Below the pieces are notes generated by a model that ran no database searches, was not told the DNA's origin, and saw only the letters and a program-made list of their open reading frames with translations. The translations under genes were made by a program, and so were the position numbers. This document shows positions 38,929 through 64,000 of a stretch of DNA of 64,000 bases, one piece after another; positions within the stretch are counted from its first letter, which is position 1; each line of letters starts with the position of its first letter. Origin of the DNA: Kribbella catacumbae DSM 19601 (GTDB taxonomy: Bacteria; Actinomycetota; Actinomycetes; Propionibacteriales; Kribbellaceae); assembly GCF_000372465.1 (NCBI RefSeq), contig NZ_AQUZ01000012.1, positions 355 to 64,354 on the forward strand. The letters are read 5' to 3'.

Positions 38929-39088
38929 CTTGTACTCCCCCACTGAGCTCTCACGAGCCCTGCCCCGTCGCCCCCCGGGCGAGTTGAAAAACGAACTCTT
39001 GGCGAACATCCCGACAACCGGACCCCACCAAAGACCGACGTGACCCCCCACGTCTGCGCTGACCTTACACCGGGTAATCACGGCTCGC

Positions 39089-40312: not shown

Positions 40313-40406
40313 GACACCACCTTAAGTCTCGCGGTGGTGACAACTGGTACGTGACAGGCCGCACCTGGGGACGAACTACCGCGCGCCGAGACACCCGGAG
40401 GGTGCT

Positions 40407-42134: not shown

Positions 42135-42376
42135 GGAGCCGGCCTTCCCGAGCGAGCCCGATGCCGCGGGGCTTGCATCACGCAGCGCAACTTTGATGAC
42201 AGAGCGCAATTGATGCACCCGGCAACAACAAACATGCCTGGGGCAACCGACTCGGAAGAATTGTTGGCCGACGCAACGACAATGCGTATTGCCACGACTA
42301 CCTCAAGTAGTAGTCTTCTGGAGAAGGCCGCACCAGGGGGGTGCAGAAAGAAGTACCAATCCCCGGAGGGTCGTCA

Positions 42377-44086
42377 GTGAAGAAGTCAGTGACCATCATC
42401 TGTGTCGCGGCAGCCGGTGCGGTCGCCTTGACCGGGATCGTCGCCGGAACGCGAAGCAGCATCGCCTCCGCATTCGGTGAGGACAACAAGTCCGGCGGCA
42501 TCCTGCCGGGTGAGCATCCACGCAAGCCCTGGCCGCGCCCGACGCCGACTCCGACCGTCAGTGTGCCCAGCACGCCCGCCCCGACCCCTGCGCCGACGCC
42601 CACCCCGACCACCACCAAGCCGACCGCCACGCCAACTCCGACGCCAACGCCCTCCCCGACACCGGAGCCCACGCCGACGCTGCTCCCCCCGGGCACCTTC
42701 CCGGCCGGCCCTTCGCTGGCGCCGGCCTGCAACGGCACCACGATCAGGACCGACCAGAACGCGGCCGACCTGATCGACAAGTCCGCGACCGGTACGACGT
42801 TCTGCTTCGCCGCCGGCCTGCATCGGATCGACCGCCCGTTGCGCCCGAAGGCGAACTCGACCCTGGGCAGCGACGAGGGCGCGGTGCTGACCGGCTCGGT
42901 CCCGCTGACCGGCTGGGCGGCCGACAACGGCGACTGGGTGACTCGCGGCGCGCTGCCGGCGGCGTACGGGATGACCGGGCAGTGCGAGGACAACGTCGCC
43001 AACATCTGCTACCTGCGCGAGCAGGTCTTCCTGAACGGCAAGCACCTGTTGCGGGTGAAGACCCGGGACAAGGTTGCTCCCGGCACCTTCTACGCCGACT
43101 ACGCCGGCAACGCGGTGTACGTCGGTGACAACCCGCAGGGCCGGTCGGTGGAGATGTCCAAGACGAAGACCGCGATCGAGCCGGGCGGGACCAACGTCGC
43201 CATCCACGGGCTGACGGTCGAGCACTTCGCCAGCGCACCGCAGGCCGGTGCAGTGGTGCTCGGCGGCGGCTGGCGGGTGTTCGCCAACGACATCCGCTGG
43301 AACCACGCGGTCGGCGCGATGCTCGTCAACGCCGACGGCGCGACGCTGGACAAGAACCTGATCCAGTACAACGGGCAGCTCGGCGTCGGCCAGTACAGCA
43401 CCAGCAACGGCAAGATCGTCGGCAACCAGGTCAGCAACAACAACACCGACGGCTTCTGGATCGCCGACTGGGAGTCCGGCGGGATCAAGACCACCTGGTC
43501 CATCAACGGGTCCGTGGCCGGCAACCTGATCAAGGAGAACCTCGGCGTCGGGCTGTGGAGCGACGCGTACGACGACAGCCGGGTGTTCCGCGACAACCAG
43601 ATCGTCGACAACGCCGCTGACGGCATCCGCTACGAGATCGGCCGCAATGGCGTGATCGAGGACAACGTCATCACGGGCAACGGCCTGGGGACCGGTCGCG
43701 GGTCGGGCCGGTCGCTGTGGGACGGCGGCGGTATCAACGTGAACACGTCGACGAACGTGACGGTTCGCAACAACGTGCTGGCCGGCAACGTGAACGGCAT
43801 CTCGATCCAGTCCCGGACCAGGGGCAACGGCCCGTGGGGGCTGAACGTGCTGCGCGACGTGATCGTCACCGGCAACAAGGTGACGATGCGCGGCGGGACG
43901 ACGTCGACGGGCATGGTGCAGAACTCCGGCGCCGCGATCCCGACCGGCGAGGTCGTGCTGAAGGACAACAGCTACGTGCTCGACAGCCTGAGCGCGGACC
44001 GGTTCCAGAAGTTCGGCCAGTGGTTCAGCGCGGCCGAGTGGCAAGCCGCCGGCCTCGACACCGGCAGCCACTTCACCACCGGCTGA
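42377..44086 (+). CDS. secreted right-handed beta-helix protein, paralogue 2
   Basis: The 569-residue protein starts with a Sec signal (MKKSVTIICVAAAGAVALTG), then a Pro-Thr linker (about residues 55-110, with PTPTPTPTP runs), the shared head (CNGTTIRTDQNAADL...AVLTGSVPLTGW) and the beta-helix with NNTDGFWIADWESGG and TGMVQNSGAAIPTGEVV. It is close to paralogue 1, 240 bp upstream. The GTG at 42377 has GGAGGG 6 nt upstream and is preferred to the frame opening at 42341. The 242-bp gap before it holds no recognisable gene or riboswitch. A terminator follows. Surface glycan modification or adhesion is the likely role. Confidence 0.86.
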   Translation: MKKSVTIICVAAAGAVALTGIVAGTRSSIASAFGEDNKSGGILPGEHPRKPWPRPTPTPTVSVPSTPAPTPAPTPTPTTTKPTATPTPTPTPSPTPEPTPTLLPPGTFPAGPSLAPACNGTTIRTDQNAADLIDKSATGTTFCFAAGLHRIDRPLRPKANSTLGSDEGAVLTGSVPLTGWAADNGDWVTRGALPAAYGMTGQCEDNVANICYLREQVFLNGKHLLRVKTRDKVAPGTFYADYAGNAVYVGDNPQGRSVEMSKTKTAIEPGGTNVAIHGLTVEHFASAPQAGAVVLGGGWRVFANDIRWNHAVGAMLVNADGATLDKNLIQYNGQLGVGQYSTSNGKIVGNQVSNNNTDGFWIADWESGGIKTTWSINGSVAGNLIKENLGVGLWSDAYDDSRVFRDNQIVDNAADGIRYEIGRNGVIEDNVITGNGLGTGRGSGRSLWDGGGINVNTSTNVTVRNNVLAGNVNGISIQSRTRGNGPWGLNVLRDVIVTGNKVTMRGGTTSTGMVQNSGAAIPTGEVVLKDNSYVLDSLSADRFQKFGQWFSAAEWQAAGLDTGSHFTTG

Positions 44087-47847: not shown

Positions 47848-47877
47848 GCTGCAATGCTTTCCGCAGCTGTTGCAGCC
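47848..47877. repeat. stem-loop in the uxaC leader
   Basis: GGCTGCAA (47848-47855) and TTGCAGCC (47870-47877) are perfect 8-bp arms around 14 nt, ending just before the GGAGGA site of uxaC. It may be a second operator or an RNA hairpin affecting translation. Confidence 0.45.
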
Positions 47878-47895
47878 GAACCCCACGGAGGACTT

Positions 47896-49302: not shown

Positions 49303-49423
49303 AACCGTTGGCCACTGACAGCCTGGCGCTCGACGGTACGAGGGTCCGCGGGGTGAGTGTCGTGGCGGAGGGCTGACCTATAGTTGGGCAACTTTCCGGG
49401 GTCGGCTTGGTGTGGGGGCATTG

Positions 49424-50965
49424 ATGGGACGCGGGTTCACGTCGGTTGGCGCTGGCTTGCTTGCCGTCTTCTTGCTGGGTGGATGCACCGACGATCAAGG
49501 CGCGCCGCTGCCGAGTGAGCCGACGTTGGGGTCGCCGACGTTGGGGGTGCCGACCGCTGCTCCGCCGGCGGCTAGCGTCAAGCTTGGGGCGACGGGGCCC
49601 GCTACTGCGGCCAAGTGTGTTGGGGTGGCGATTGCGGTTGGGGCCGATCCGCAGAAGGTGATCGACGCCAATCCGACCGCCAAGACGTTCTGCTTCGCCA
49701 AGGGACTGCATCGGATCAGCCACGCGATCCGGCCTGGGGCTGGCTCGACACTGGGGAGCAGCGAGGGCGCGGTACTGACCGGCTCGGTGCCGCTCAAGGG
49801 GTGGCGGGCTGAGGGCGGTCGTTGGGTGGTCCGCGACGTGCTGCCATCGGCGTACAAGCTGAAGGGGAAGTGCGAGGACGAGAAGACCAACCCGTGTCAG
49901 CTCGCCGAGCAGCTCTTCGTCGACGGCCTGCACCTCACGCGGGTGATGAGTCTCGATCAGCTGAAGCCCGGCACGTTCTTCGGTGACTACCAGGCCAACG
50001 CCGTCTACGTCGCCGACGATCCGGCCGGCAAGGTCGTCGAGATGTCGCGCACGCGGACGGCGATCGAGGCCTCGGCGCAGGACGTCACGATCTCCGGGCT
50101 GACCATCGAGCACTTCGCGAGCATTCCGCAGGGCGGCGCGTTGCAGGTCGGTACAGGTTGGAAGGTGCTGGCGAACGAGGTTCGCTGGAACCACGCGGTC
50201 GGCGTGATGGTGCTCCAAGGTGACCGGGCGACGGTCAGCGGGAACACGGTCGCCGACAACGGGCAGCTCGGCATCGGCCAGTACCGCTCCGCCGACGTGA
50301 AGCTCACCGGGAACCTGGTCACCCGCAACAACACCGACGGCTTCTGGATCGCCGACTGGGAGTCGGGCGGGATCAAGTCGACCCGCTCGTCCGGTGAGGT
50401 GTCGGGCAACGACATCGTCGCGAACCGCGGGATCGGGATGTGGAGCGACATCGCGGAGTACGACCGCAAGATCGTCGGGAACCGGATCCGGGACAACGCG
50501 GCCGACGGGATCCGGTACGAGATCAGCTACCAGGCGGTGATCGAGCAGAACGTTGTCGAGGGCAACGGGTTCGGCACCGGGCGCGGGTCGGGGCCGAGTC
50601 TGTGGGACGGCGGTGGGATCAATGTGAACACGTCGTCGGATGTGACCGTGGCGGGCAACCTGATCAAGGGCAACCGCAACGGCATCGCGATCCAGTCGCG
50701 GACCCGGGGTGACGGGCCGCGCGGGGTGTACGTGCTGAACGGCGTCGTGATCGAGGCGAACCAGGTCGTGATGGACGACAAGACCGCGAGCACCGGGGTG
50801 GTGGAGAACAAGGAGTCACCGGCCAAGGACGGGGCGATCCGCTTCAGCCGGAACAGCTACCGGATCGGCGACCGCGCGGCCGAACGCTTCGCCTACCGCG
50901 GCAAGACGATGACCTGGACCCAGTGGCAAGCCGCCGGCTTCGACAAGGACAGCATCAGCAACTGA
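49424..50965 (+). CDS. beta-helix lipoprotein, paralogue 3
   Basis: The 513-residue protein starts with a lipoprotein signal (MGRGFTSVGAGLLAVFLLGGC, lipobox LGGC at residues 18-21), so it is membrane-anchored where the other two paralogues are secreted or anchored. After a short Pro/Ala linker come the head (CVGVAIAVGADPQKVI...AVLTGSVPLKGW) and the beta-helix with NNTDGFWIADWESGG and SLWDGGGINVNTSSDVTV. The ATG at 49424 has GGGGG upstream; GTG 49412 is an alternative. TATAGT (49379-49384) is a likely minus-10 box. It follows uxaC and is convergent with the polymerase-like gene. Confidence 0.87.
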   Translation: MGRGFTSVGAGLLAVFLLGGCTDDQGAPLPSEPTLGSPTLGVPTAAPPAASVKLGATGPATAAKCVGVAIAVGADPQKVIDANPTAKTFCFAKGLHRISHAIRPGAGSTLGSSEGAVLTGSVPLKGWRAEGGRWVVRDVLPSAYKLKGKCEDEKTNPCQLAEQLFVDGLHLTRVMSLDQLKPGTFFGDYQANAVYVADDPAGKVVEMSRTRTAIEASAQDVTISGLTIEHFASIPQGGALQVGTGWKVLANEVRWNHAVGVMVLQGDRATVSGNTVADNGQLGIGQYRSADVKLTGNLVTRNNTDGFWIADWESGGIKSTRSSGEVSGNDIVANRGIGMWSDIAEYDRKIVGNRIRDNAADGIRYEISYQAVIEQNVVEGNGFGTGRGSGPSLWDGGGINVNTSSDVTVAGNLIKGNRNGIAIQSRTRGDGPRGVYVLNGVVIEANQVVMDDKTASTGVVENKESPAKDGAIRFSRNSYRIGDRAAERFAYRGKTMTWTQWQAAGFDKDSISN

Positions 50966-51004: not shown

Positions 51005-52300
51005 CTAGATGTACTTCTGGGGGCGGGGTTTGGGCGGAGGTGGATGAGCCTTGGCTCGGAGGCGGTCGGCGTCGCAGACTGCGGCCGCGACCAGCAGGTG
51101 GAGCGTCATCGAGCTCAGGTCTGACAGGCCGCTCTCGTTCAGCGAGGCGACCGAGACGTAGCCGAGCAGGAGTGCGCCGCTGGCCTTGACGAAGGGCGTG
51201 GGTGCGCGCAGTACCGAGATCCAGGCGACGATGAAGGCGATCCCGACGATGGTGACAGCCAGCAGACCCGTCTCCCAGTAGAGACTCAGCCAGCTGTTGT
51301 CGATGGCCATCACGTCGATATCGCCCTCGCCGCGGCGGAGCAGCACGCGTTTGTTGCCCAGCCCATGGCCGATGATCGCGGTCTGCAGCGAGACCTCCTC
51401 GTCCAGCACGTACTGCCAACTCGTGGTCCGGCCGCTCAGCGAGCTGATCTGCTTGGTGCCCTGGCCGCGCAGAAGCCAGGTTTGCAGCGAGGGGATGACG
51501 GTGAAGGCCAGCCCCATCAACGCCGGCACCGAGATCGACGCTATCCGGCCGAACCAGGTCTTCCGCGTCAGCAGCAGAGCAAGCACCAGACCGACGGCCA
51601 CAGCCGCGGCGGCCGTCCGGGTGCGGCTCAGCGCGACCAGCACCAGACCGAGGCCGACCAGAGCGCCGGCGGGCACGAACGCAAGCTTGCGGTAGACGAA
51701 CGCGATGATCGCCAACCCGAGCAGGATGGCCCCGACCTCGCCGACCCGCGGCGGCAGCATCGGGATGAGCACACCCTGCAGGCGATAGCCGGTGCCGAAC
51801 GTGCTCAGCGGCCGCCACGCCACCGTGGGACGCCAGATGACGCTGAGGACCACCGTGAGCGCCAGCAGAAGATGCGCGAGCAGATGCGCGCGGATCAACC
51901 GCTCCGGCACCCGGATCAGCGGCCGCCAAAGCATGAACAGGAGCAGCAGCCCGATCAACAGCCGCGCCAGCCGGAGCAACGGGCCACCCGGATCCGCGAG
52001 CAAGAACGCCGTGGCCGTAGCGAACATCGCGTAGACGACGTACAAGGTGGTGGCGGGGCTCGATCGCGTCCGGAACCCCGGCTTCGTCGCCGCCAGGCAG
52101 ATCAGGAAGATCGCCCCGAGCAGGACGCCCTTCATCAGGCTGTTGTTCGAGCCGGTCGATCCCTGCGGCGCGGCGGCCCGCGAAGACCAGGGCTGCACGC
52201 CCAGCACCAGCAGGCTCCACATCGCCAGCCAGAGCCAGCTCGCCTTGGTGCTGTTGGACGCGTCAGTGGTCCCCGGCACCGGCGGTGCCGTCAGCGTCAT
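51005..52300 (-). CDS. O-antigen ligase/polymerase-like membrane protein (Wzy_C family)
   Basis: The 431-residue protein has around 11-12 hydrophobic segments and the Wzy/WaaL-family features: an Arg-bearing segment ALSRTRTAAAAVAV and a periplasmic loop with GRTTSWQYVLDEE and IGHGLGN. Such proteins polymerise lipid-linked repeat units or ligate the chain to an acceptor at the outer face of the membrane. A Pro-rich C-terminal tail (PPPPKPRPQ) is probably cytosolic. It lies downstream of the Wzz-like gene, 38 bp away, in one leftward unit. Confidence 0.87.
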   Translation of the reverse strand: MTLTAPPVPGTTDASNSTKASWLWLAMWSLLVLGVQPWSSRAAAPQGSTGSNNSLMKGVLLGAIFLICLAATKPGFRTRSSPATTLYVVYAMFATATAFLLADPGGPLLRLARLLIGLLLLFMLWRPLIRVPERLIRAHLLAHLLLALTVVLSVIWRPTVAWRPLSTFGTGYRLQGVLIPMLPPRVGEVGAILLGLAIIAFVYRKLAFVPAGALVGLGLVLVALSRTRTAAAAVAVGLVLALLLTRKTWFGRIASISVPALMGLAFTVIPSLQTWLLRGQGTKQISSLSGRTTSWQYVLDEEVSLQTAIIGHGLGNKRVLLRRGEGDIDVMAIDNSWLSLYWETGLLAVTIVGIAFIVAWISVLRAPTPFVKASGALLLGYVSVASLNESGLSDLSSMTLHLLVAAAVCDADRLRAKAHPPPPKPRPQKYI

Positions 52301-52338: not shown

Positions 52339-53982
52339 TCAGCGCAGCGGCGGTGTGGTCTCGGCCGGGGTGAAGTTCAACGGAATGCCCAGCGTCTCAT
52401 CGTGCTTGGAAGCGCCGATCAGTACGACGCCCAGCACCGGCGCACCAGCAAACCTCAGCGCGGCCGTGAGCCGGGTGAGGTCGGTCTCCTTGTCCTGGCC
52501 GACCTGCACCACCAGCACCGACGCGTCGACCGCAGCGGCCAGCGGCGTGATCCCATGCCGGCCAACCGAAGCCGGTCCGTGGATGACGACCGAGTACCCC
52601 GGGGGCAGGTCGGCCACGATGCCCGGTACGAGTGACGGGCCGATGGCCAGCGCGCTCTCGTCGCTGCTCAGCCCAGGCGGCAGCACGTACAGATCAGCCA
52701 CCGTGCCAGGACGGAACAGCTTGCGAGCCCGTACTGCGCGGGTCGGGGCCGGCTCGTTGACGAGATCGGTGAGGCCTTCGTGGTCGGTCACGTGCGACAA
52801 CACCGGCGTACCGCGCAGGTCGGCGAGGACCAGCAACGTCTCGCGGCCATCGCGGGCACTCGCCTCGGCCATTGCCAGCGCGACACCTGCCGAGTTCCGG
52901 TTGGGTGAGGCGGAGACGACCAGCAGCGCGCCGGCACCGCTGGCTCCAATGCCTCTTGGGTTCAGCTCGCGCCGGGCGAGCGCACCGCTCGCTTCGGTGC
53001 CCAGCCCGGTGATCTCCGACGGCGGCAACTGCGGCGAGGCGCGAAGCCAGAAGCGCCAGCGGAAGCCGAGCCGGAAACGACGGTGGCCGATCGAGGCGGC
53101 GATCACCGGCGAAGCGGCCGCGCGGGCCGCCTGGTCGCGAGTCAGGATGAACGGGCTCAGATGGGTGCTGATCAGCGCCAGGCCGAAACCGAGCACCAGG
53201 CCGAGGATCGCGCCAACGGTGATGTCGCGTGACACCAGCGGCGACGAGGTCGCGGTGTCCTTCGTGGCCGGCGTGACCAACTGGCTGCTCGCGCCGACGC
53301 CCGAAAGGGCCTTGTTCATCGCGGCTGCCTGGTCGGCGGCCTGCCGGGCCTCTGTGGCCAGGCCGACTCGCTGGTCGCGCAGGGCGGCCGCGTACTGCGT
53401 GTCGTTGCGCTGGATCGCCTCGTTGATCAGGCTGACCAGGCTCTTCGACTGAGCGTTGGCGGTCTTGGCCCGGTCGGACGCCTGGCTGGCGAGCGTGACC
53501 AGCAGGGCTTTGGCCTCCCGGCTGCGCTGGGCCAGGTAGATCTGGGCGATCGCGTTGGCCCGGCGTACCGCTTCGTCGGCGGTCGGGCCGTCGATGGTGA
53601 TCAGGTAGGCGTTGTCGGTGACCGCCTTGACCCGGGTCACACCGGACAGCGACTGGACCGAGTCGTCCGTGGTCGGCATCTGCAGGAACTTGGCGACCTC
53701 ACGCAGGATCGCCGGGCTGGCCATCACCCGGGCCTGCGTCTCGGCCGGCAGGTCGAGCCCGAGCGGGCCGGTCTTGTCCGCGCCGGTGGGCAGGTCGCCG
53801 ACCAGGGCCGGCGGTACGGCCGGCCCGATCACGACCTGGCTGGACGCGGTCCAGCGCTCGGTCTGCGACAACGAGAAGACGGCGGCGCCGCCGATGCCCA
53901 GCAAGACGCAGCCGATGATCAGCCACCTGTGCCGCAGGAGTGACTGCGCAGTGTCCCGCCAGACCACAGTGCCCGGTTCCAT
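52339..53982 (-). CDS. Wzz-like chain-length protein with degenerate tyrosine-kinase domain
   Basis: The 547-residue protein has the Wzz layout: a first membrane helix (residues 19-40), an extracytoplasmic domain (40-255, with coiled-coil-prone LASQASDRAKTANAQSKSL) and a second helix (about 260-280). A cytosolic BY-kinase-like domain follows, but the P-loop position reads SASPNRNSAGVALAMAEAS with no GKS/T, and the Walker A' position reads LLVLADLRG. It is therefore unlikely to bind ATP in the normal way and may be a pseudokinase that regulates chain length by contact only. No Tyr-rich tail is present. It is upstream of the polymerase-like gene. Confidence 0.85.
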   Translation of the reverse strand: MEPGTVVWRDTAQSLLRHRWLIIGCVLLGIGGAAVFSLSQTERWTASSQVVIGPAVPPALVGDLPTGADKTGPLGLDLPAETQARVMASPAILREVAKFLQMPTTDDSVQSLSGVTRVKAVTDNAYLITIDGPTADEAVRRANAIAQIYLAQRSREAKALLVTLASQASDRAKTANAQSKSLVSLINEAIQRNDTQYAAALRDQRVGLATEARQAADQAAAMNKALSGVGASSQLVTPATKDTATSSPLVSRDITVGAILGLVLGFGLALISTHLSPFILTRDQAARAAASPVIAASIGHRRFRLGFRWRFWLRASPQLPPSEITGLGTEASGALARRELNPRGIGASGAGALLVVSASPNRNSAGVALAMAEASARDGRETLLVLADLRGTPVLSHVTDHEGLTDLVNEPAPTRAVRARKLFRPGTVADLYVLPPGLSSDESALAIGPSLVPGIVADLPPGYSVVIHGPASVGRHGITPLAAAVDASVLVVQVGQDKETDLTRLTAALRFAGAPVLGVVLIGASKHDETLGIPLNFTPAETTPPLR

Positions 53983-54359: not shown

Positions 54360-56573
54360 ATGAAGAAGAGATGGCTATTCGCGCGCCTTGGCACGGTCGG
54401 CGCACTGGTAGCGGCAGCCGGAGTCATGGTGCTGGCACCGCCGGCCCAGAGCATCGAGGCCTCGCTCTCGGCGCAGAACAGCCCGGTCTGGCAGACCAAC
54501 GCGAGTGTGCAGGGAATCGCCGTAGCGGCCGGGAAGGCCTACGCCGGTGGGCGCTTCACCAGCGTCCGTCCGCCGGGTTCACCGCTCGGCACCAACGAGG
54601 TCGGCCAGGCGTACCTGGCGGCCTTCGACTCGACCACCGGCGAACTCGTGGCCGGCTTCAACCCGGTCCTCGACGGCCAGGTGTACGCCGTGGCCGCGTC
54701 ACCCGACGGCTCGCGGATCTTCATCGGCGGTGACTTCACCACCGTCAACGGCGTGACCCGCAACCGGATCGCCGCCTTCGACACCGCCACCGGCGCGCTG
54801 GTGACGAACTGGAAGCCCTCCGTCTCGTACCGGGTCAAGTCGATCGCCGTCTCCGGCGACGGCGACACCGTGTACTTCGGCGGCTCGTTCGGCCTCGTGA
54901 ACGGCGTCGACCGGCTCCGGCTCGCCGCGGTCACCGCCGACCTCGGCACCTTGTTGCCCTGGGCCCCTTCCGCCAACGGCGACGTGTACGCCGTGGACAT
55001 CGCCGACGACGGCTCCAAGGCCTACGCCGGTGGCCAGTTCAGCACCGTCAACGGCACCAACCAGAACACCGTCTCGAGCCTCGACCCGGTGACCGGTGCG
55101 GTACTGCCCTTCCCGGGCGCCACCGCGGTCCCGCCGCCGAACGGCTCCTGCACCACCCGGGTCAAGTCGATCGACGCCAGCGGCGACACCGTGTACTTCG
55201 GCAACGGTGGCGACGGCGGCGGCTGCTTCGACGGCACCTGGGCGGTCGACCTCGCGACCAACGCGCTGAAGTGGAAGAACCAGTGCCTCGGCGCGACCGA
55301 GACGGTCAAGGTGGTGAACGGCTGGCTCTACAAGGGTTCGCACGCTCACGACTGCGCCTACCAGGGCGCCGGTGCCTTCCCGCAGGGCTTCGGCTACCGC
55401 TTCCTGCTCACCCAGAGTCTGGCCGACGGCAAGATCGGCCCCTGGTTCCCGAACACTAACGCCGGTCCGCCCACCGAGGTCGGCCCGCTGGCGTTCGCCA
55501 CCGGCGGCTCAGATCTGTGGGTCGGTGGAGACTTCACCACGACCAACGGCGCCGGTCAGCAGGGTCTGACCCGCTTCACCAACGCGAGCCCGGGTGCTGC
55601 TCCGGCCAAGCCGGCCAAGCTGCTCCCGTACTCCGTCCAGCCGGGTGTCGTCCAGATCCACTTCCCCACGGTCGTGGACAACGACGACAGCACGTTGACC
55701 TACCGGCTGCTGAAGGGCTTCAGCAACACCACCATCGCGACCTGGACCGCCAAGTCGACTCCGTGGGACAAGCCGTGGCTGCACTACACGGACACCGACG
55801 TGACGCCGGGCGAGGTGACCAACTACCGCGTCGAGGTCACGGACGGCACTACGACGATCCGGGGCAACTACTCCGACCCGCTCACGGTGGCGAGCACCGC
55901 GAGTACGGCGTACGAGCAGATCATCGCCTCTGACGGCCCGCAGGCGTACTGGCGGCTTGGTGAGGCGTCCGGCTCGACCACGTCGGTGGACGCCTCCGGC
56001 CAGAGCAACAACGGCACGTTCACCGGTATGACGCTCGGCAGCGCCGGCAAGGTCAGCGGGAACACGGCGGCGACGGTCAGCTCGAGCAACGGCCGGATGG
56101 TCGGCGAGAAGGCCTACAGCATGCCGCAGCAGTTCACCGTGGAGGCCTGGTTCAAGCAGAGCATCTTCCGCGGCGGCCGGATCATCGGCTTCGGCAACTC
56201 GAAGACCGGCAGCAGCAGCGTGAGCGACCGGATGCTCTACCTGCGGTCCAACGGCCAGGTCACCTTCGGCATCAACGACGGCACCCAGCGGACCATCAAC
56301 AGCACGTCGAACAAGAACAACAGCGCCTGGCACCACGCGGTCGGCACCTACGACAACGGGACCATGAAGCTGTACGTCGACGGCGTGCTGGCCGGCAGCC
56401 AGACCGTCGGATCGGCGGCCTTGTACTACGGCTGGTGGCGGGTCGGCTACGACAACATCAACAGCTGGTCGGGTGGCGGCGCGACGCAGACGGGCATGGT
56501 GATCGATGAGCCGGCTGTCTACCCGTACGCGCTCACCGCGGACCAGGTCCAGGCGCACTTCAACGCTGGCTGA
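54360..56573 (+). CDS. secreted propeller-like/FN3-like/LamG protein, array copy 1
   Basis: The 737-residue protein has a Sec signal (about residues 1-31, MKKRWLFARLGTVGALVAAA), a repetitive beta-rich part (about 32-410) starting WQTNASVQGIAVAAGKAYAGG and containing several GGDFTTVNG-like blades, an FN3-like domain (about 415-515) and a LamG/concanavalin-like domain (about 517-737: YWRLGEASG, FTVEAWFKQ, WHHAVGTYDNGTMKLYVDG). The ATG at 54360 has AGGGGGG about 14 nt upstream. It is the first of four tandem paralogues, and LamG suggests carbohydrate or glycoprotein binding. No catalytic domain is seen. Confidence 0.82.
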   Translation: MKKRWLFARLGTVGALVAAAGVMVLAPPAQSIEASLSAQNSPVWQTNASVQGIAVAAGKAYAGGRFTSVRPPGSPLGTNEVGQAYLAAFDSTTGELVAGFNPVLDGQVYAVAASPDGSRIFIGGDFTTVNGVTRNRIAAFDTATGALVTNWKPSVSYRVKSIAVSGDGDTVYFGGSFGLVNGVDRLRLAAVTADLGTLLPWAPSANGDVYAVDIADDGSKAYAGGQFSTVNGTNQNTVSSLDPVTGAVLPFPGATAVPPPNGSCTTRVKSIDASGDTVYFGNGGDGGGCFDGTWAVDLATNALKWKNQCLGATETVKVVNGWLYKGSHAHDCAYQGAGAFPQGFGYRFLLTQSLADGKIGPWFPNTNAGPPTEVGPLAFATGGSDLWVGGDFTTTNGAGQQGLTRFTNASPGAAPAKPAKLLPYSVQPGVVQIHFPTVVDNDDSTLTYRLLKGFSNTTIATWTAKSTPWDKPWLHYTDTDVTPGEVTNYRVEVTDGTTTIRGNYSDPLTVASTASTAYEQIIASDGPQAYWRLGEASGSTTSVDASGQSNNGTFTGMTLGSAGKVSGNTAATVSSSNGRMVGEKAYSMPQQFTVEAWFKQSIFRGGRIIGFGNSKTGSSSVSDRMLYLRSNGQVTFGINDGTQRTINSTSNKNNSAWHHAVGTYDNGTMKLYVDGVLAGSQTVGSAALYYGWWRVGYDNINSWSGGGATQTGMVIDEPAVYPYALTADQVQAHFNAG

Positions 56574-56640
56574 CCAGCACTCACGCAAAGCTGCACGCTG
56601 AGCGGACGGTCTCAGTGCCATAGCACAAAGTCATAACGCC

Positions 56641-56673
56641 GGTGGGAGCCCACCTTCCTGTTGGTCTCCCACC
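56641..56673 (+). terminator. terminator-like hairpin after array copy 1
   Basis: GGTGGGAG (56641-56648) pairs with CTCCCACC (56666-56673), with outer bases partly pairing. It lies 68 bp after the copy-1 stop, with a T-rich stretch nearby. Confidence 0.55.
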
Positions 56674-56727
56674 AGCGTTAGATTTCGCCTGCTAACGGCA
56701 CCGCCCTCGCCCAGCTTAAGGAAGTTG

Positions 56728-58251
56728 ATGAAGAAGCTAGTTCTGGCAGTTGTGACCGCTGCCGCCGTGCTTGCCGCGGCACTGATCCCCTCCGGCCCGC
56801 CGGTGGAGGCTGCCACGGCCGGATTCGCCTCCGCCGTGTCAGCGATCAAGCAGCCTTCGTGGCAGACCAACTCCAGCGTGAACGCTCTCGCAGTCACCGG
56901 AAACATCGTGTACGCCGGTGGCCTGTTCACCCGGATCCGGCAGCCTGGCAAGCCGGCCGGCCAGGGTGAGACCGCCCGGACCTATATCGCCGCCTTCAAC
57001 CGCACCACCGGCGCGCCGCTCGCGTTCGCGCCGAAACTCAACGGCGCGGTCTGGGCCATCGCGACCAGCCCGGACGGCAAGTGGGTCGTGATCGGTGGCG
57101 ACTTCTCCACCGTGAACGGCATCCGGCGCAACCGCATCGCGATGTTCAGCGTCGCGACCGGCAAGCTGGTCCAGGCCTGGGACCCGTCGGTGGCCACCCG
57201 GGTCAAGGCGATCGCCATCTTCGGCAACAGCGTCTTCTTCGGTGGCTCGTTCGGCCGGGTCGACAACACGGTCCGCAACCGGCTCGCCGCGGTCCGGTTG
57301 ATCCAGGGTGACCTGCTGCCGTGGAACCCGAACGCCGACGACGAGGTCTACGCGATCGACCTGTCCGACAACGGCACCCGGGTGTTCGTCGGTGGTCCGT
57401 TCAAGAAGATCAACGGCAAGGACCACTACTCGCTGGCGATGACCAACAACACCACCGGGGCGGCGTTCTCGATGCCCGCCGCGGCGGCGATCCCGAAGCC
57501 GACGATCAGCTGCACGACGCGGGTCAAGACCATCGACACGCTCGGCAACAAGGTCTTCGTCGGCAACGGCGGCGACGGCAGCGGCTGCTACGACGGCGTA
57601 CTGGCCGCTGACGCCACCACCGGTCAGCTGCTCTGGCAGAACAAGTGCCTGGGCGCCACCGAGGCGGTCAAGGCGATCGGCAACTGGGTCTACAAGGGCT
57701 CGCACGCGCACAACTGCAGCTCGAGCGGCGCCTTCCCCGACGGCACCGGCACGCACTACCTGCTGGTGGAGAGCGGTATCGACGGCAAGATCGGGCCGTG
57801 GTTCCCGAACACCGACGCCAATCCGAACAGCAGCACGCAGGTCGGCCCGCTGGCGTTCGCGTCCGGAGGCAACGATCTGTGGGTGGGCGGCGACTTCCTG
57901 CACGTCAACGGCAAGGTCCAGCAGGGTCTGACCAGGTTCACCAATGCCGCGGGGGGCGCGGCGCCGGCGGCACCGAAGGCACCGACCCTGTCCAGCACGG
58001 TGGCCAACCAGGTGTCTGTCAGCTTCAAGGACAGCTACGACCTGGACAACCTGTCGCTGACCTACAACGTGTTCCGCGGCGCGACCAACATCAGCTCGCA
58101 GAAGCTCACCACGTACTACTGGCAGGCGCGCAAGACGGTGACGTTCGTTGACAAGGGCGTCAAGAGCGGCCAGACGGTCAGCTATCACATCGAGATCCAC
58201 GACGGGCGCAACATCATGAAGGGCCCGGCGCTCTCGGTGAAGGTCCGGTGA
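56728..58251 (+). CDS. secreted propeller-like/FN3-like protein without LamG, array copy 2
   Basis: The 507-residue protein has a signal peptide (MKKLVLAVVTAAAVLAAAL), the conserved start PSWQTNSSVNALAVTGNIVYAGG, the repeated region with VFVGNGGDGSGCYDGVLA and YKGSHAHNCS, and a final FN3-like domain (about residues 411-507). It lacks the LamG domain of copies 1 and 3. The ATG has AAGGA 6 nt upstream; TTG 56725 is adjacent. Cysteines in GDGSGC and NKC, and HNCS, are shared with the paralogues and could form disulfides outside the cell. Confidence 0.82.
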   Translation: MKKLVLAVVTAAAVLAAALIPSGPPVEAATAGFASAVSAIKQPSWQTNSSVNALAVTGNIVYAGGLFTRIRQPGKPAGQGETARTYIAAFNRTTGAPLAFAPKLNGAVWAIATSPDGKWVVIGGDFSTVNGIRRNRIAMFSVATGKLVQAWDPSVATRVKAIAIFGNSVFFGGSFGRVDNTVRNRLAAVRLIQGDLLPWNPNADDEVYAIDLSDNGTRVFVGGPFKKINGKDHYSLAMTNNTTGAAFSMPAAAAIPKPTISCTTRVKTIDTLGNKVFVGNGGDGSGCYDGVLAADATTGQLLWQNKCLGATEAVKAIGNWVYKGSHAHNCSSSGAFPDGTGTHYLLVESGIDGKIGPWFPNTDANPNSSTQVGPLAFASGGNDLWVGGDFLHVNGKVQQGLTRFTNAAGGAAPAAPKAPTLSSTVANQVSVSFKDSYDLDNLSLTYNVFRGATNISSQKLTTYYWQARKTVTFVDKGVKSGQTVSYHIEIHDGRNIMKGPALSVKVR

Positions 58252-58315
58252 GCCGGGCTATCTGACTTCGCGCCGCACCAGGCGGCGCTGGAGTACATCC
58301 TTGAGGGGGGATGTC

Positions 58316-60505
58316 GTGAAGAAGGTGGGGATATTCGCGCTGGGCGGTCTGCTGGTGGCAGCTTTGCTGTCACCAGCACCCGCACAGGGCATCGGTGCTT
58401 CGCTGTCGGCTCTGACGAGCCCGGTCTGGCAGACCAACGCCAGCGTGCAAGGACTCGCGGTGGCGAACGGGAAGGCGTACGTCGGGGGGCGTTTCACCAA
58501 GGTCCGGCCACCGGGGGCGGCTGCAGGCACGAGTGAGACCACGCGGACCTATCTGGCCGCGTTCGACCAGAGCACCGGGGCACTGGACGCCGGGTTCAAC
58601 CACACCCTGAACGGAATGGTCTGGGCCGTAGCGGCCTCGGCCGACGGCTCCCGGGTCTTCGTCGGGGGCGACTTCACCAACGTCGACGGCCAGACCCGCA
58701 ACCGGGTGGCCGCGTTCGACACCGCCACCGGCGCACTCGTCTCCAACTGGAAGCCGTCCGTGTCGTACCGGGTCAAGGCACTCGCCGTCTCCGGCGACGC
58801 GGTCTACCTGGGTGGCTCGTTCGGGCTGGTCAACAACGTTGCCCGGCCGCGGCTGGCTGCGGTCACGACAGGCACGGCCGCACTACTCCCCTGGGCTCCG
58901 CAGGCGGACAACGACGTCTACGCGATCGATGCGGCCGACGACGGCAGCAGGGTGTACGTCGGCGGCAACTTCTCGACGATGAACGGTACGGCGCGGTGGT
59001 CCGTGGCAAGCCTCGACCCGACCGACGGGTCGCTGCAGGCGTTCCCGGCGGCCAGTGCGGTCCCGAACCCGGCCCCGGGCTGCACGTCACGGGTCAAGGA
59101 CATCGACACCAGCGGCGACCGCGTGTACTTCGCCAACGCCGGTGACGGCGGTGGCTGCTTCGACGGCACCTGGGCAGCAGACGTTGCCTCTGGCGACTTG
59201 CTGTGGAAGAACAACTGCCTCGGCGCGACCGAGTCGGTCACTGTCGTGAACGGCTGGCTCTACAAGGGTTCGCACGCTCACGACTGCAGCTACTTGGGCG
59301 GCAACGGCTTCCCGCAGGGACCGGGCCGGTTCCTGCTGACCCAGAACCTCGACACCGGTGAGCTCGGGCCGTGGTTCCCCAACACCAACACCGGCTCCCC
59401 CACTGCGGTAGGTCCCTTGGCATCCGCGACAGGCGGCACGGACCTCTGGGTGGGCGGCGACTTCACCACGGTGAACGGCGCCGGGCAACAGGGCCTCGCC
59501 CGCTTCACCAACACCGGACCGGGCGCGGCACCGGCCAAACCCGCCAAGGTGACTCCGGTCAGCTACAAGGCCGGCCAGGTCAAGGTGAACTTCCAGACCG
59601 TCGTGGACAACGACGACATCACGCTGACCTACCGGGTACTGCGCAGCTTCAGCAACACCGTCGTCGCGACGTACACGGCAGACTCGCGGTTCTGGAACCG
59701 GCCGTGGCTGTCCTTCACCGACACCGGGCTGACTCCCGGCTCGTCGCAGGTCTACCGGGTCGAGGTGACTGACGGGAACAGCACACTGCGCGGTGACTAC
59801 TCCGTTGCGGTGACCGTGGCCAGTGTGGACGCGCCGTACGACCAGCAGGTGCTGGCAGACGGCCCCACGGCGTACTGGCGGTTGGGGGAGGCCACTGGGA
59901 CGGGCACTGCTACCGACTCGTCCAGCCAGAACAACACCGGCCCGTACTCCGGTGTCACGCTGGGCGTGCCCGGCGTACTGACCACTGGGGGCAACACCGC
60001 CGGTGACTTCGACGGTGCGAGCAGGATGATCGGGCAGACCTCGACCAGCCAGCCGCAGAACTTCAGCGTCGAGGCCTGGTACAAGACCACCTCGGGCGGC
60101 GGCGGCAAGATCGTTGGCTTCGGCAACAGCTCGAACGGGACGAGCAGCCAGTACGACCGGCACATCTACCTGCAGAACGACGGCACCGTGACGTTCGGCC
60201 TGTGGGACGGATCGGCCCGGACCATCAGCTCGGCACCGGGGACCAACGACGGCCAGTGGCACCACGTGGTCGGCACGTTCTCGCCGGGGTCGCAGAAGTT
60301 CTATCTGGACGGCGTCCTGCTGGGCACCCAGAACGTGACGGCCGCCGAGCCGTACACGGGCTACTGGCGGATCGGCGCCGACAACCTGGGCGGCTGGCCG
60401 AACGGGCCGTCCAACGCCGGGATCGACGGCACCCTCGACGAGGTCGCCGTTTACCCGGTCGCACTGGATGCAGGCCAGGTGCAGACGCATTTCGGCGCCA
60501 GATAA
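58316..60505 (+). CDS. secreted propeller-like/FN3-like/LamG protein, array copy 3
   Basis: The 729-residue protein is the closest to copy 1: signal peptide (about 1-26), WQTNASVQGLAVANGKAYVGGRF, NAGDGGGCFDGTWA, WLYKGSHAHDCS, the FN3-like part (about 405-500) and a LamG domain (about 505-729: YWRLGEATG, FSVEAWYKT, WHHVVGTFSPGSQKFYLDG). GTG 58316 with GAGGGGGG upstream is preferred to the TTG 58301 opening. The gap after copy 2 is only 64 bp, so copies 2-3 may be co-transcribed. Confidence 0.82.
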   Translation: MKKVGIFALGGLLVAALLSPAPAQGIGASLSALTSPVWQTNASVQGLAVANGKAYVGGRFTKVRPPGAAAGTSETTRTYLAAFDQSTGALDAGFNHTLNGMVWAVAASADGSRVFVGGDFTNVDGQTRNRVAAFDTATGALVSNWKPSVSYRVKALAVSGDAVYLGGSFGLVNNVARPRLAAVTTGTAALLPWAPQADNDVYAIDAADDGSRVYVGGNFSTMNGTARWSVASLDPTDGSLQAFPAASAVPNPAPGCTSRVKDIDTSGDRVYFANAGDGGGCFDGTWAADVASGDLLWKNNCLGATESVTVVNGWLYKGSHAHDCSYLGGNGFPQGPGRFLLTQNLDTGELGPWFPNTNTGSPTAVGPLASATGGTDLWVGGDFTTVNGAGQQGLARFTNTGPGAAPAKPAKVTPVSYKAGQVKVNFQTVVDNDDITLTYRVLRSFSNTVVATYTADSRFWNRPWLSFTDTGLTPGSSQVYRVEVTDGNSTLRGDYSVAVTVASVDAPYDQQVLADGPTAYWRLGEATGTGTATDSSSQNNTGPYSGVTLGVPGVLTTGGNTAGDFDGASRMIGQTSTSQPQNFSVEAWYKTTSGGGGKIVGFGNSSNGTSSQYDRHIYLQNDGTVTFGLWDGSARTISSAPGTNDGQWHHVVGTFSPGSQKFYLDGVLLGTQNVTAAEPYTGYWRIGADNLGGWPNGPSNAGIDGTLDEVAVYPVALDAGQVQTHFGAR

Positions 60506-60551
60506 CGGAAACAGGGCTATAACTGAAAACAGCGTTCCTAGGGGGGAACAA

Positions 60552-62054
60552 ATGAGAATACGAAGGATGACAGCTGCACTAGGGGTGGCCGGTCTCGCGC
60601 TTGCCGTCGTGCCCGCGCTCCCGGCGCCCGGCACGGGGGCCTCGCTGACGGCCGTGGCGAACTCGGCCTGGCAGACCGACGCGAGTGTGCTCGGTCTGGC
60701 GGTGACCAAGGGCAAAGCATTCGTCGGCGGCCGATTCACCAGGGTTCGCCCGCCGGGTGCCGCGCCCGGGACCAGCCTGACCGTCCGGACCTACCTGGCG
60801 GCCTTCAACCAGAGCACCGGCGCCCTCGACACCGGCTTCAACCACACGCTGAACAACGTGGTCTGGTCGATCGTCGCCTCGCCCGACGGCTCCAAGATCT
60901 ACATCGGTGGCGACTTCACCCGCGTCGACGGCCAGGTTCGCAACCGGATCGCCGCCTTCGACGCGACCACCGGAGCACTGCTGCCGAACATCAAGCCGAG
61001 CGTCTCCTACCGGGTCAAGACGCTCGCAGTCGGCGGCAACAGCCTGTACTTCGGCGGCTCGTTCGGCCTGGTCAACAACGTCGCCCGCAACCGCGCGGCG
61101 GCGATCAGTACGGTCGACGGCAGCCTGCTGCCATGGAACCCGAACGCCGATGCGGATGTCTACGCGATCGACGCGGCCGACGACAACTCCAAGGTCTACC
61201 TGGGCGGCACCTTCGCCAAGATCGGCGGCACCAGCCGCTGGGCCGTGGCGAGCGTGAACAACTCCACCGGCGCGTTGCTGCCGTTCGCGGCCGCATCCGC
61301 GGTCCCACTGCCGAACAGCCGGTGCACCTCACGGGTCAAGGACATCGAGACCAGCGGCGGCGTCGTGTACTTCGCCAACGCCGGCGACGGTGGCGGCTGC
61401 TTCGACGGCACCTGGGCGGCGAACATTGCCACCGGCAACCTGGTCTGGAAGAACAACTGCCTGGGCGCCACCGAGACGGTCACCATGGTGAACGGCTGGC
61501 TCTTCAAGGGTTCACACGCCCACAGCTGCCCGGGCGCCTTCCCTGACGGCACCGGAGCCCACTTCCTGCTGCTGCAGAACCCGGCCAACGGCAACCTCGG
61601 TCCCTGGTTCCCGAACACCAACGCAGGTCCGCCGACCGAGGTGGGCCCGCTCGTCTCAGCAACCGGCGGTGCCGACCTGTGGGTTGGTGGCGACTTCACC
61701 AAGGTCAGCGGTGCCAACCAGCAGGGCCTGACCCGCTTCACGAACCTGGGTGCTGGCGCTAAGCCGCTGGGGCCGGCGCTGCCGACACTGTCCAGTACTA
61801 CGACCGGCCAGGTGCGGGCGACCGTGCAGACCTCGCTGGACAACGACGACATCACCCTGACCTACCGGCTGCTCCGCGGCGGAACCAACACGGTAGTGGC
61901 CACCACTACGGCGAACTCGACCTTCTGGAGCCGCCCGACGGTGACACTGACCGACACCACTGCCCCGTCGGGGACATCGCAGCAGTACCGGATCGAGGTC
62001 TACGACGGGAACAACACAGTGCGAGGTGGATTCGCCACCGTCACTGTGCGCTGA
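60552..62054 (+). CDS. secreted propeller-like/FN3-like protein without LamG, array copy 4
   Basis: The 500-residue protein has a signal peptide (MRIRRMTAALGVAGLALAVV), SAWQTDASVLGLAVTKGKAFVGGRF, NAGDGGGCFDGTWA, LFKGSHAHSC and a terminal FN3-like domain (about 406-500); no LamG. The ATG at 60552 has AGGGGGG 7 nt upstream, replacing the frame opened at 60468. Copy 4 follows copy 3 after 46 bp. The stop overlaps the convergent flippase stop by 14 bp. The array thus alternates LamG-bearing and LamG-less copies. Confidence 0.82.
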   Translation: MRIRRMTAALGVAGLALAVVPALPAPGTGASLTAVANSAWQTDASVLGLAVTKGKAFVGGRFTRVRPPGAAPGTSLTVRTYLAAFNQSTGALDTGFNHTLNNVVWSIVASPDGSKIYIGGDFTRVDGQVRNRIAAFDATTGALLPNIKPSVSYRVKTLAVGGNSLYFGGSFGLVNNVARNRAAAISTVDGSLLPWNPNADADVYAIDAADDNSKVYLGGTFAKIGGTSRWAVASVNNSTGALLPFAAASAVPLPNSRCTSRVKDIETSGGVVYFANAGDGGGCFDGTWAANIATGNLVWKNNCLGATETVTMVNGWLFKGSHAHSCPGAFPDGTGAHFLLLQNPANGNLGPWFPNTNAGPPTEVGPLVSATGGADLWVGGDFTKVSGANQQGLTRFTNLGAGAKPLGPALPTLSSTTTGQVRATVQTSLDNDDITLTYRLLRGGTNTVVATTTANSTFWSRPTVTLTDTTAPSGTSQQYRIEVYDGNNTVRGGFATVTVR

Positions 62055-63291
62055 GTCGGTGGGCTGCGATGGCGCGATGGGCTTCGTGCCACCACAGCAG
62101 CAGAGTGCAGAACGAAGCGATGGCCAGGCCCCAAGCAGCACCCTTGGGGCCGGCCAGGAAGGCTCCTCCGACACCCGTGACGATCAGGATGATCGAGGAG
62201 ATCAAGCGGACCCGCAGTCCTCTGGTAGCGGCTGTGAGTGCGCGCAGGATGGCGAAGGCGCCCGCATTGGACGCTCCTAGCGCCTGCAGCAGGATGACGG
62301 GCACCAGCACGGTCCTGGCTTGAGCCCACACGCCAGGACCGAGCAGCTGCTCCCCCACGACCTCAGGGAGCAGTAGGAAGACAGCACCCCACGCGAGAGC
62401 GCCTGTGCCCACTCCTAGCGAGATCGCCAGGCCTACTAGCCACAAGCGCCGGTAGGAGTGCTTCAGGGCCCGCGCAGCCTCCGGTACTGCGATCATGCGA
62501 ATCCCCTGGTTCAGCACGTTCACAGGACCCAGCAGGACCTGCGCACCGCGGATACCGGCCGTGGCGGCCAACCCGGCGGCCACAGTGATCCCCACCATGT
62601 AGACCTGGATGGTGCCGCTCACGGCCAGCATCTCCCCGACGTACTTCGGAGTGAGGTCCCGGTGGCTGATCAGCCACTCCCGGATCAGCTGGCGACGCGG
62701 CATGACGCCTGCCTGGAACCGCCCCGCTACAGCGGCTATCACCGCACCTAGACCCCAGCCCAGCGTCAGCGAGAAGGCTGTGGCCGAGCCGGTCAGGTAG
62801 AGCCCGGCGAAGATCGCCCCCATCGCGATCAGCCAGATCAGATCGTTGAGGAAGGCTTTCTGCCCCTCGCCCACGACGAAGAAGGCCCAGCGCCAGGCGT
62901 CCTGCAGCAACAACCCCGGCAGGGTGACCGCGAAGGCGATCAGTACGCCCTTGGACGGTACGCCGGGGAACAACGCGATCGCGAGACCGACCACCATCCC
63001 CATCAGGCCTGCGAACAGCGCGGTCGCAGTACTGGCCCGGACGGCTCGCTCCCAGGCTGGGCTGCGGTCGCCGGAATGCCTTACGGACAAGGGTTCTGTG
63101 GCGACGGCCCGGGAGACGTTCAGGGCGATCGTGTAACCGCCGAAGGCGAGTGCGTAGATGCCGAAGTCCGCCACGCTGCTGCTGCGCGCGACGAACACGC
63201 CGACCGCCAGATTGCTCAGGCTGGACAGCGCTTGGTCGGCAAGCCCCCAGCCCGCCCGGCCGGCCGGACCTGCCAGCCTCGACAATTTCAA
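62041..63291 (-). CDS. Wzx-like flippase / polysaccharide biosynthesis membrane protein
   Basis: The product of about 416 residues has some 12 hydrophobic segments in the MOP (MATE/Wzx) arrangement: SNLAVGVFVARSSSVADFGIYALAFG, ATEPLSVRHSG, VGGAFLAGPKGAAWGLAIASFCTLLLWW. Wzx proteins move lipid-linked glycan units across the membrane. The start is uncertain: TTG 63291 or TTG 63285, just after the WecG-like stop, with weak ribosome sites; the frame to 63366 overlaps the upstream gene. It is downstream of the WecG/TagA-like gene in one leftward unit. Confidence 0.83.
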   Translation of the reverse strand: MKLSRLAGPAGRAGWGLADQALSSLSNLAVGVFVARSSSVADFGIYALAFGGYTIALNVSRAVATEPLSVRHSGDRSPAWERAVRASTATALFAGLMGMVVGLAIALFPGVPSKGVLIAFAVTLPGLLLQDAWRWAFFVVGEGQKAFLNDLIWLIAMGAIFAGLYLTGSATAFSLTLGWGLGAVIAAVAGRFQAGVMPRRQLIREWLISHRDLTPKYVGEMLAVSGTIQVYMVGITVAAGLAATAGIRGAQVLLGPVNVLNQGIRMIAVPEAARALKHSYRRLWLVGLAISLGVGTGALAWGAVFLLLPEVVGEQLLGPGVWAQARTVLVPVILLQALGASNAGAFAILRALTAATRGLRVRLISSIILIVTGVGGAFLAGPKGAAWGLAIASFCTLLLWWHEAHRAIAAHRLSAQ

Positions 63292-63301
63292 GACAGGATC
63301 T

Positions 63302-64000
63302 TCAAGCGACCGGCCTCGGCGGCTGACGAAGAATTCCCACCGCGAACCGCGGGATCCCCAGCACATAGCGACGCCAGAGCCGACGCGGTTCCTTGTAGAT
63401 CCGGTAGCTCCACTCGAGGCCGGACCGCTGCATCCACTTCGGCGCGCGGTCGACCCGGCCGGTGTGGAAGTCGAACGCCGCGCCGACGCCGATCAGGATC
63501 GCGGCATCGAGCCGGTCGCGGTGCCCGGCCATCCAGCGCTCCTGCTTCGGCGCGCCGAGGCCGACCCAGATGATGTCCGGGTTCGCCTCGTTCAGCCGGT
63601 CCACGATCTCGGCGTCCTCTGCCTCGGTCAGCGCCCGGTACGGCGGCGAGTAGACCCCCGCCACCTTCAGCCCCGGGTGCCTCGCGGTGAAGGTGTCGCG
63701 CAGCTTCTCGGCAACACCGTCGGCCCCGCCGTAGAAGTACTGCGTCCAGCCGCGCTCCTCGGCCTCCGCCATCACCCGCTCGACCAGGTCCGGGCCGCAG
63801 ACGCGGTCCATCTGCTCGAAGCCGGCCCTCTTACCCGCCCAGACCAGCGGCATCCCGTCCGGCAGCGTCATGCCGGACGTGTTGTACACCTCGGTGAGCT
63901 GGTCGTCGGCGCGAGCGTGCAGCAGTGCGTTCATGTCCGAGACGCAGACCAGGTGCCGCTCGCCGTCCTCGATCCAGCGGGCGAACGTGTCGACGGTGTG
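63302..64000 (-). CDS. WecG/TagA/CpsF-family glycosyltransferase, N-terminus beyond the window
   Basis: The reverse strand is open to the window edge, so the gene begins outside; about 232 residues are seen. The family signature GMPLVWAGKRAGFEQMDRVCGPDL, FYGGADGVAEKLRDTF, GVYSPPYRALTEAED, IIWVGLGAPKQERWM and GVGAAFDFHTGRVDRAPKWMQRSGLEW is complete. Such enzymes add N-acetylmannosamine(uronate) or similar to a lipid-linked sugar in teichoic-acid or capsule synthesis. The internal ATG 63934 is not the start, since conserved residues (TFARWIEDGERHLVCVSDMNALL) precede it. Confidence 0.92.
   Translation of the reverse strand, partial: HTVDTFARWIEDGERHLVCVSDMNALLHARADDQLTEVYNTSGMTLPDGMPLVWAGKRAGFEQMDRVCGPDLVERVMAEAEERGWTQYFYGGADGVAEKLRDTFTARHPGLKVAGVYSPPYRALTEAEDAEIVDRLNEANPDIIWVGLGAPKQERWMAGHRDRLDAAILIGVGAAFDFHTGRVDRAPKWMQRSGLEWSYRIYKEPRRLWRRYVLGIPRFAVGILRQPPRPVA

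Follow-up and report, generated by a model that had tools for sequence, protein, structure and literature searches.

The window analysed here is a 64,000-nucleotide stretch of the Kribbella catacumbae DSM 19601 genome (contig NZ_AQUZ01000012.1, positions 355 to 64,354), and in its right-hand part lie four large genes, arranged in tandem on the same strand, that encode paralogous proteins of secreted type. An earlier note on this DNA had described such a set; the four reading frames are indeed intact, with lengths of 737, 507, 729 and 500 amino acids (aa) exactly as given there. The tie that it drew between these paralogues and a Wzx/Wzy-type polysaccharide locus is borne out across the genus, as 35 of 35 Kribbella arrays lie beside Wzz and Wzy genes, and relatives in other bacterial families tend to lie near polysaccharide genes. 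The four genes are as follows:

54360..56573, + strand: copy 1, 737 aa, ATG start; signal-peptide-like N terminus, seven-bladed propeller, FN3-like sandwich and LamG domain (about 56124-56552), from the open reading frame, a PF13385 match of 75.3 bits and the alignment
56728..58251, + strand: copy 2, 507 aa, ATG start; propeller and FN3-like sandwich without LamG, with an AlphaFold2 model
58316..60505, + strand: copy 3, 729 aa, GTG start; propeller, FN3-like sandwich and LamG domain (about 60050-60484), from a PF13385 match of 80.2 bits and an AlphaFold2 model
60552..62054, + strand: copy 4, 500 aa, ATG start; propeller and FN3-like sandwich without LamG, from the open reading frame, Pfam and the alignment

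All four products begin with basic residues and have a hydrophobic segment inside the first 45 residues, in keeping with the signal peptides claimed for them. Hydropathy maxima after the leader are 0.98-1.12, against 1.87-2.42 in the N-terminal stretch; the hydropathy scan showed no second membrane-like segment in any copy, and no LPxTG-like sortase motif was found near the four C termini. Judging from these leaders, a cytosolic location is unlikely. The shared opening, the blade repeats and the later histidine–cysteine motif recur in all four copies (as WQT[ND][AS]SV and KGSHAH[DNS]C), and each copy contains four cysteines. The LamG domain passes the PF13385 cut-off of 27.6 bits in copies 1 and 3 only, as had been claimed; in copies 2 and 4, Pfam gives neither a PF13385 match nor any lectin family. 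Writing L for a copy with LamG and S for one without, the array thus reads LSLS.

Over the 460-474 columns that each pair shares, identity is 68.8% for copies 1 and 3, 67.5% for 3 and 4, 59.7% for 1 and 4, 51.8% for 2 and 4, 50.4% for 2 and 3, and 50.1% for 1 and 2, making copy 2 the most diverged of the four. The ratio of nonsynonymous to synonymous substitution rates (dN/dS), measured against three LSLS relatives, is 0.10-0.36 for all copies, all four of which are under purifying selection. A chance resemblance among the copies was considered and is ruled out by the 50-69% identity over about 460 columns, the intact frames and these dN/dS values.

Predicted fold of the propeller and its invariant C...HxHxC site

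Structure prediction resolves what the earlier note had called blade-like repeats into a seven-bladed beta-propeller, with high confidence in the two copies modelled (AlphaFold2 mean predicted local distance difference test, pLDDT, of 85.6 for mature copy 3, from 62 sequences, and 91.8 for copy 2, from 32 sequences). When residues 1 to about 375 of copy 3 are compared with known structures, seven-bladed propellers come out best, the top four having Z scores of 30.8-31.3 over 272-279 residues at root-mean-square deviations of 2.1-2.4, and the Foldseek matches of copy 2 are likewise seven-bladed; the best fold matches of the propeller are WD40-type binding propellers. The following domain is a predicted beta-sandwich with no fn3 match in Pfam, so that "FN3-like" is to be taken as a description drawn from the predicted strands. 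In the PDB, the LamG portion of the family profile has matches to the pentraxin 3flp and the S-layer-domain protein 4qvs; sequence searches of the PDB with the propeller returned short weak stretches only.

The propeller has no specific model in Pfam or NCBIfam. Rax2 (PF12768, cut-off 28.8 bits) scores 34.5 bits in copy 1, 33.7 in copy 3, 30.9 in copy 4 and 26.5 in copy 2, on a partial model and with no single stretch passing, and DUF5122 (PF17164) is above its cut-off in copies 2, 3 and 4; both models cover only part of the propeller, and their best stretches fall outside the blade that carries the site described next. A phage origin of copy 2, suggested by a match to PHROG 5490 (function not assigned), was set aside: three phage records match, just one of them near-full, and that one, an unverified faecal contig with a GC content of 71%, seems bacterial; IMG/VR adds one weak locus. 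The record MT835675 (L168), filed as an unverified bacteriophage, encodes a large HxHxC propeller protein and, at 71% GC, looks like a piece of actinobacterial chromosome.

Alignment of 27 sequences from outside Kribbella and 100 from within it reveals four residues that are invariant in every one: C276, H295, H297 and C299 (numbered on mature copy 3, with blade limits that we drew ourselves). This C...HxHxC motif sits in blade 6. HxHxC is present in all proteins scoring above 220 bits and absent from seven distant propeller-type proteins below 151 bits. Altogether 14 polar positions of the propeller are at least 90% conserved in each set, and 11 of these fall in blades 1, 6 and 7; the others besides the motif are Q14, R39 and T62 (blade 1), S83 and D85 (blade 2), W272 (blade 5), T280 and W328 (blade 6), and N362 and Q366 (blade 7), and the FN3-like part adds four further polar positions conserved to the same degree. 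From the order of the strands we infer that HxH, R39 and Q366 share one face of the propeller, in the B-C loops of blades 6, 1 and 7 respectively.

Such a site raises the possibility, which we hold to be unlikely though well worth weighing, that the propeller is a secreted carbohydrate-active enzyme (a lyase, hydrolase or transferase) that would trim, cleave or modify the polymer, with LamG targeting it to its substrate and the Cys...HxHxC residues being catalytic, possibly with a metal or a disulphide. The invariance of the four residues in all 127 sequences and the lack of HxHxC in each of the seven distant propellers speak for it. The HxH pair may resemble the metal site of oligogalacturonate lyase (PL22), a likeness on which there is nothing among the literature matches listed. 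In the other direction, no Pfam or NCBIfam enzyme family lies above cut-off in any of the four copies and none is offered for the family as a whole; the best folds are binding propellers, although a shared fold proves no function; and the motif cysteines may be structural only.

The array and its polysaccharide locus across Kribbella and beyond

Full-length arrays occur in 35 of 38 Kribbella genomes. In every one of the 35 (the window and loci L095-L128), Wzz is no more than 0.33 kb and Wzy no more than 2.1 kb from the array, and in 34 a Wzx-like gene stands within 1.7 kb on the other side. By our reading the arrays divide into 14 of type LS, 16 LSS, 1 LSL and 4 LSLS; the alternation of LamG that had been described is therefore real in K. 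catacumbae but does not extend to most of its relatives' arrays, LSLS being a minority form (4/35). A decayed fourth copy in the LS species was looked for by tblastn with the four copies and rejected, as no extra match appeared in the 14 LS arrays (the frame-broken array L096 was also run). Many Kribbella genomes carry, in addition, a solo short copy at a separate site.

Several variants are seen around this common arrangement. Five LS arrays (L106, L110, L118, L124 and L126) are separated from the Wzx-like gene by one extra gene of about 320-400 aa. Genome G030 has an insertion of about 16.5 kb that parts copy 4 from the Wzx-like gene (L122, 1-6000, and L158), and the insert encodes DAHP synthase, isochorismatase, chorismate-binding and FAD enzymes, a phenazine-like set. 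The LSS array of G002 (L096) has two copies that are frame-split between the propeller and the following part, by decay or assembly error. Genomes G008 (L162) and G017 (L134) hold a further set of propeller proteins, which are longer and lack HxHxC; by Pfam, two from L162 have PKD domains, and in G017 this longer set is present and the array absent.

The genes around the array in K. catacumbae are these:

52339..53982, - strand: Wzz-type chain-length determinant with a kinase-like C terminus, divergent from copy 1 (PF02706, 35.9 bits)
51005..52300, - strand: Wzy/O-antigen-ligase-type polymerase (PF04932, 34 bits; cut-off 31.7)
62041..63366, - strand: probable Wzx flippase, convergent with copy 4; 441 aa with some 12 hydrophobic segments by a crude hydropathy scan, and a location conserved across the genus
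63302..64000, - strand: WecG/TagA/CpsF glycosyltransferase (PF03808), reaching the window end
49412..50965, + strand: right-handed beta-helix protein of secreted type (PF13229, 104.7 bits), whose relatives adjoin other Kribbella arrays
36139..44086, strand unassigned: two GT4 glycosyltransferases, a cytidylyltransferase and CDP-alcohol phosphotransferase pair, and two beta-helix proteins (Pfam)

The Wzz-type protein has a weak match to TIGR01007 (autokinase), far below cut-off. Past the window end (L155) follow GMD (PF16363), an epimerase (PF01370) and a sugar-phosphate transferase (PF02397). The locus thus combines PF02397, PF04932 and PF02706, with Wzx recognised by hydrophobic segments and position. 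Placing the array between a polymerase/Wzz pair and a flippase, as the earlier note did, stands on Pfam matches for its first half; the flippase has no Pfam match, and its call rests on length, the roughly 12 segments and position. We read the epimerase as GDP-fucose-synthase-like, and with GMD and the sugar-phosphate transferase beside it the exported polymer probably contains fucose.

Inside the locus, at 44233-49302, lies a hexuronate catabolism set (a mannitol-dehydrogenase-type reductase, a PfkB kinase, a LacI regulator and UxaC) that recurs in many Kribbella loci; recycling of a uronate polymer is a possible role for it. Three right-handed beta-helix proteins are encoded in the locus (40407-44086 and 49412-50965), with relatives near the propeller gene in some other bacterial families (L145, L146, L151 and L153). 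The right-handed beta-helix is a fold common among lyases and epimerases, and the presence of these proteins together with the hexuronate genes adds to the case for an enzyme.

The same catabolic genes suggest a different reading, in which the proteins would capture foreign plant or microbial polysaccharide for uronate catabolism and the adjacency to polysaccharide export would be accidental. That the set lies between the polymerase and the glycosyltransferases, and recurs in many Kribbella loci, is in its favour. We nevertheless find it very improbable: propeller genes of other families stay near polysaccharide synthesis genes, no relative of the catabolic genes turned up in 20 loci from outside the genus, each 15-20 kb long (L135-L154), and G017 has the catabolic genes without the array.

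Beyond Kribbella, 97 of 394 class-wide genomes (K. catacumbae included) match the family at E <= 1e-20, many of them partially. We hand-picked 36 outside genomes for near-full-length members, at least five others being omitted (G407, G189, G368, G141 and G338), and counted marker genes within 20 kb of a member, with chance expectations that assume random genomic placement. The PF02397 sugar-phosphate transferase lies that close in 24 of the 36 genomes (0.92 expected; never more than 7 in 200,000 random draws), a CDP-alcohol phosphotransferase in 27 (0.31 expected; never more than 5) and a Wzy_C gene in 14 (1.00 expected; never more than 7). In 35 genomes a member is close to one or more of these three markers; G350 is the exception. 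In three Streptomyces-like loci (L139, L140 and L144), a PGT, FCL and GMD set adjoins the propeller gene.

Individual relatives span a range of distances. An Actinomyces oris record aligns with copy 1 along the whole length at 30% identity, and relatives in Arthrobacter sp. ok362 and Actinotalea soli share 54% and 52% identity with copy 3, differing from it in being longer and having PKD domains after LamG. Among 23 named matching loci, 19 are from Kribbella, two from "Streptomyces sp. SID13031", one from Arthrobacter and one from Actinotalea. The SID13031 loci (L009 and L029) hold an LSLS array with one copy 94% identical to copy 3, and the strain is probably a mislabelled Kribbella. Actinobacterial relatives are annotated as "LamG domain-containing protein" or "hypothetical protein"; the propeller belongs to an actinobacterial family without a name, tied to polysaccharide loci in several families.

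The recurrence of the family among other actinomycetes is also compatible with a developmental role, in which the locus would make the sheath of spores or aerial hyphae, with the propellers as structural parts of that coat. Kribbella is a sporulating filamentous actinomycete. EPS (exopolysaccharide) clusters of Wzx/Wzy and related types are reported to be required for normal sporangia in Actinoplanes missouriensis (PMC13390465, PMC12691653), which favours such a role; the words propeller, LamG, laminin and fibronectin are, however, absent from the main text of PMC13390465. Relatives also occur in genomes of 2.7-4.4 Mb, from probably non-sporulating actinobacteria, and overall we consider this explanation improbable.

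Duplication history, LamG and a conserved hairpin

The earlier note proposed that a two-gene unit had been duplicated, which predicts that copy 1 pairs with copy 3 and copy 2 with copy 4. In a maximum-likelihood tree of 59 chosen rows including outside families (another tree used 82 chosen rows), all 45 Kribbella rows form one group (support 100/99), within which copies 1 and 3 group together (94/99, not starred), as the proposal requires. Its other half fares less well: rows of copy 2, joined by three of four solos, share a branch with rows of copy 4 at a support of just 40/90, and a rival grouping of 1+3+4 is equally likely or slightly better when imposed as a constraint (approximately unbiased test, p-AU 0.555), while a 3+4 grouping is not rejected either (p-AU 0.303). 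The remaining solo, L132, falls with copy 1 of its own genome, G031. With the propeller and FN3-like parts tested apart, p-AU ranges from 0.26 to 0.38 across five groupings, and 1+3 is a branch of the FN3-part tree (76/67). Pairing copy 4 with copy 2 is likewise unsupported by raw identity, copy 4 being closest to copy 3 (67.5%), then copy 1 (59.7%) and last copy 2 (51.8%), a comparison qualified by the long branch of copy 2; the trees are equivocal. Both histories are possible on these data: one pair duplication followed by losses, or separate duplications with two LamG losses.

The fewest LamG changes that explain the tree are two among the Kribbella rows and five overall (the frame-broken G002 row left out). 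LamG is present in 22 of the 27 outside sequences by our model, and by Pfam also in the Arthrobacter and Actinotalea relatives. Since most outside relatives carry it, the domain is probably ancestral, and the short copies probably lost it rather than the long ones gaining it.

Between copies 1 and 2 lies a further conserved feature:

56622..56699, + strand: conserved RNA hairpin, with flank GCACAAAGTCATAACGC

Its stability exceeds that of shuffled sequence (z -4.87 over 56580-56727). The core TAACGC is found in 32 of 35 gaps between the first and second copies (two lack it, and an array with broken frames, which was passed over, is scored as the third miss), and changes on both sides are seen at 7 of 11 predicted pairs among the 24 of 29 distinct sequences that were aligned. 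A 17-mer from this region has a single occurrence in the genome when up to 2 mismatches are allowed, and Rfam has no match in the window. The element is a candidate terminator, processing site or attenuator; by ending or processing the transcript it may determine how much of copy 1 is made relative to the others.

Proposed role and relation to known systems

Nearly all sampled Kribbella keep some version of the set, and the array proteins therefore probably bind or rework an outer sugar polymer. The interpretation we put forward, tentatively and as a plausible reading of sequence, models and analogy, is that the products of the four genes are secreted into the matrix and bind the exopolysaccharide made by the Wzx/Wzy locus, working much as Bap1 and RbmC do. 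Each protein would be exported via its signal peptide, and the top face of its propeller, formed by blades 6, 7 and 1 around the invariant HxHxC and the arginine, would grip the polymer made by the neighbouring genes, with the FN3-like domain as a stiff spacer. In copies 1 and 3, LamG would provide a second, lectin-type site tying the polymer to another strand, to the wall or to an outside surface; copies 2 and 4 would hold the polymer only, and the degree of cross-linking would be governed by the balance between two-site and one-site proteins.

Several observations weigh against this interpretation. The invariant HxHxC exceeds the needs of a scaffold or spacer, which is what makes the enzyme its main rival, and the position in the cluster is equally consistent with an enzyme. 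Three of the 38 Kribbella genomes (G013, G017 and G037) have distant partial matches only and no full-length members. No recognised polysaccharide-cluster genes lie near the solo copy in any of the five solo loci examined (L129-L133, including K. catacumbae's own), so the propeller family can act elsewhere. Among the 36 outside genomes, 12 have no PF02397 gene within 20 kb of a member, 9 no CDP-alcohol phosphotransferase and 22 no Wzy_C gene. The signal peptides, finally, were judged by hydropathy only. A more elaborate form of the enzymatic alternative, which the sequences and models make conceivable and which we think doubtful, is that the seven-bladed propeller, with the C...HxHxC site on its top face, represents an undescribed family of secreted carbohydrate-active enzymes that occurs widely among actinobacteria and remodels the cell's own fucose-type exopolysaccharide; in Kribbella it would have grown into a tandem set, the forms with and without LamG acting at different places on the polymer in a ratio set by the hairpin.

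To our knowledge, little has been described about the matrix proteins of filamentous actinobacteria, and the present set brings to this subject a family linked to polysaccharide loci across several actinobacterial families. Kribbella, with two to four paralogues beside the polymerase in nearly all species sampled, offers a natural series in which to compare one-site and two-site binders in a coat, and the invariant HxHxC turns the choice between enzyme and scaffold into a direct question.

The earlier note knew of no described system with this layout, and we too found no description among the open-licence literature matches listed, the Vibrio proteins Bap1 and RbmC being close in design. Trans-sialidases likewise place a lectin-type sandwich after a propeller in a glycan-active surface protein. 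This plan appears among the multi-domain Foldseek matches, a point for the enzyme; the superposition is poor (template-modelling scores of 0.20-0.27 over the whole model for trans-sialidase/GH33), and the comparison is one of fold, not of catalytic residues. Sialidase propellers are six-bladed.

The closest parallels to the proposed working come from the biofilm matrix of Vibrio cholerae. RbmA, which has fibronectin type III domains, is a matrix protein and binds exopolysaccharide (PMC5605196); the likeness lies in the FN3 element, the part consulted mentions no propeller or LamG, and the Kribbella FN3-like call derives from predicted strands and not from a family match. Bap1 and RbmC are secreted modular adhesins whose shared beta-propeller binds their own exopolysaccharide and whose added domains face outward (PMC10102183). 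Like the Kribbella set, they are propeller-based paralogues that differ in their added domains, lectin-type ones included. Their propeller has eight blades and their lectins are beta-prisms, whereas the Kribbella proteins have seven repeats, an FN3-like sandwich and either LamG or no lectin family; because blade number and lectin type differ, the Kribbella proteins are not members of the Bap1/RbmC group. Polymer binding has been demonstrated for the Vibrio proteins and the Kribbella set is known from sequence and predicted folds; the likeness seen between them is one of design.

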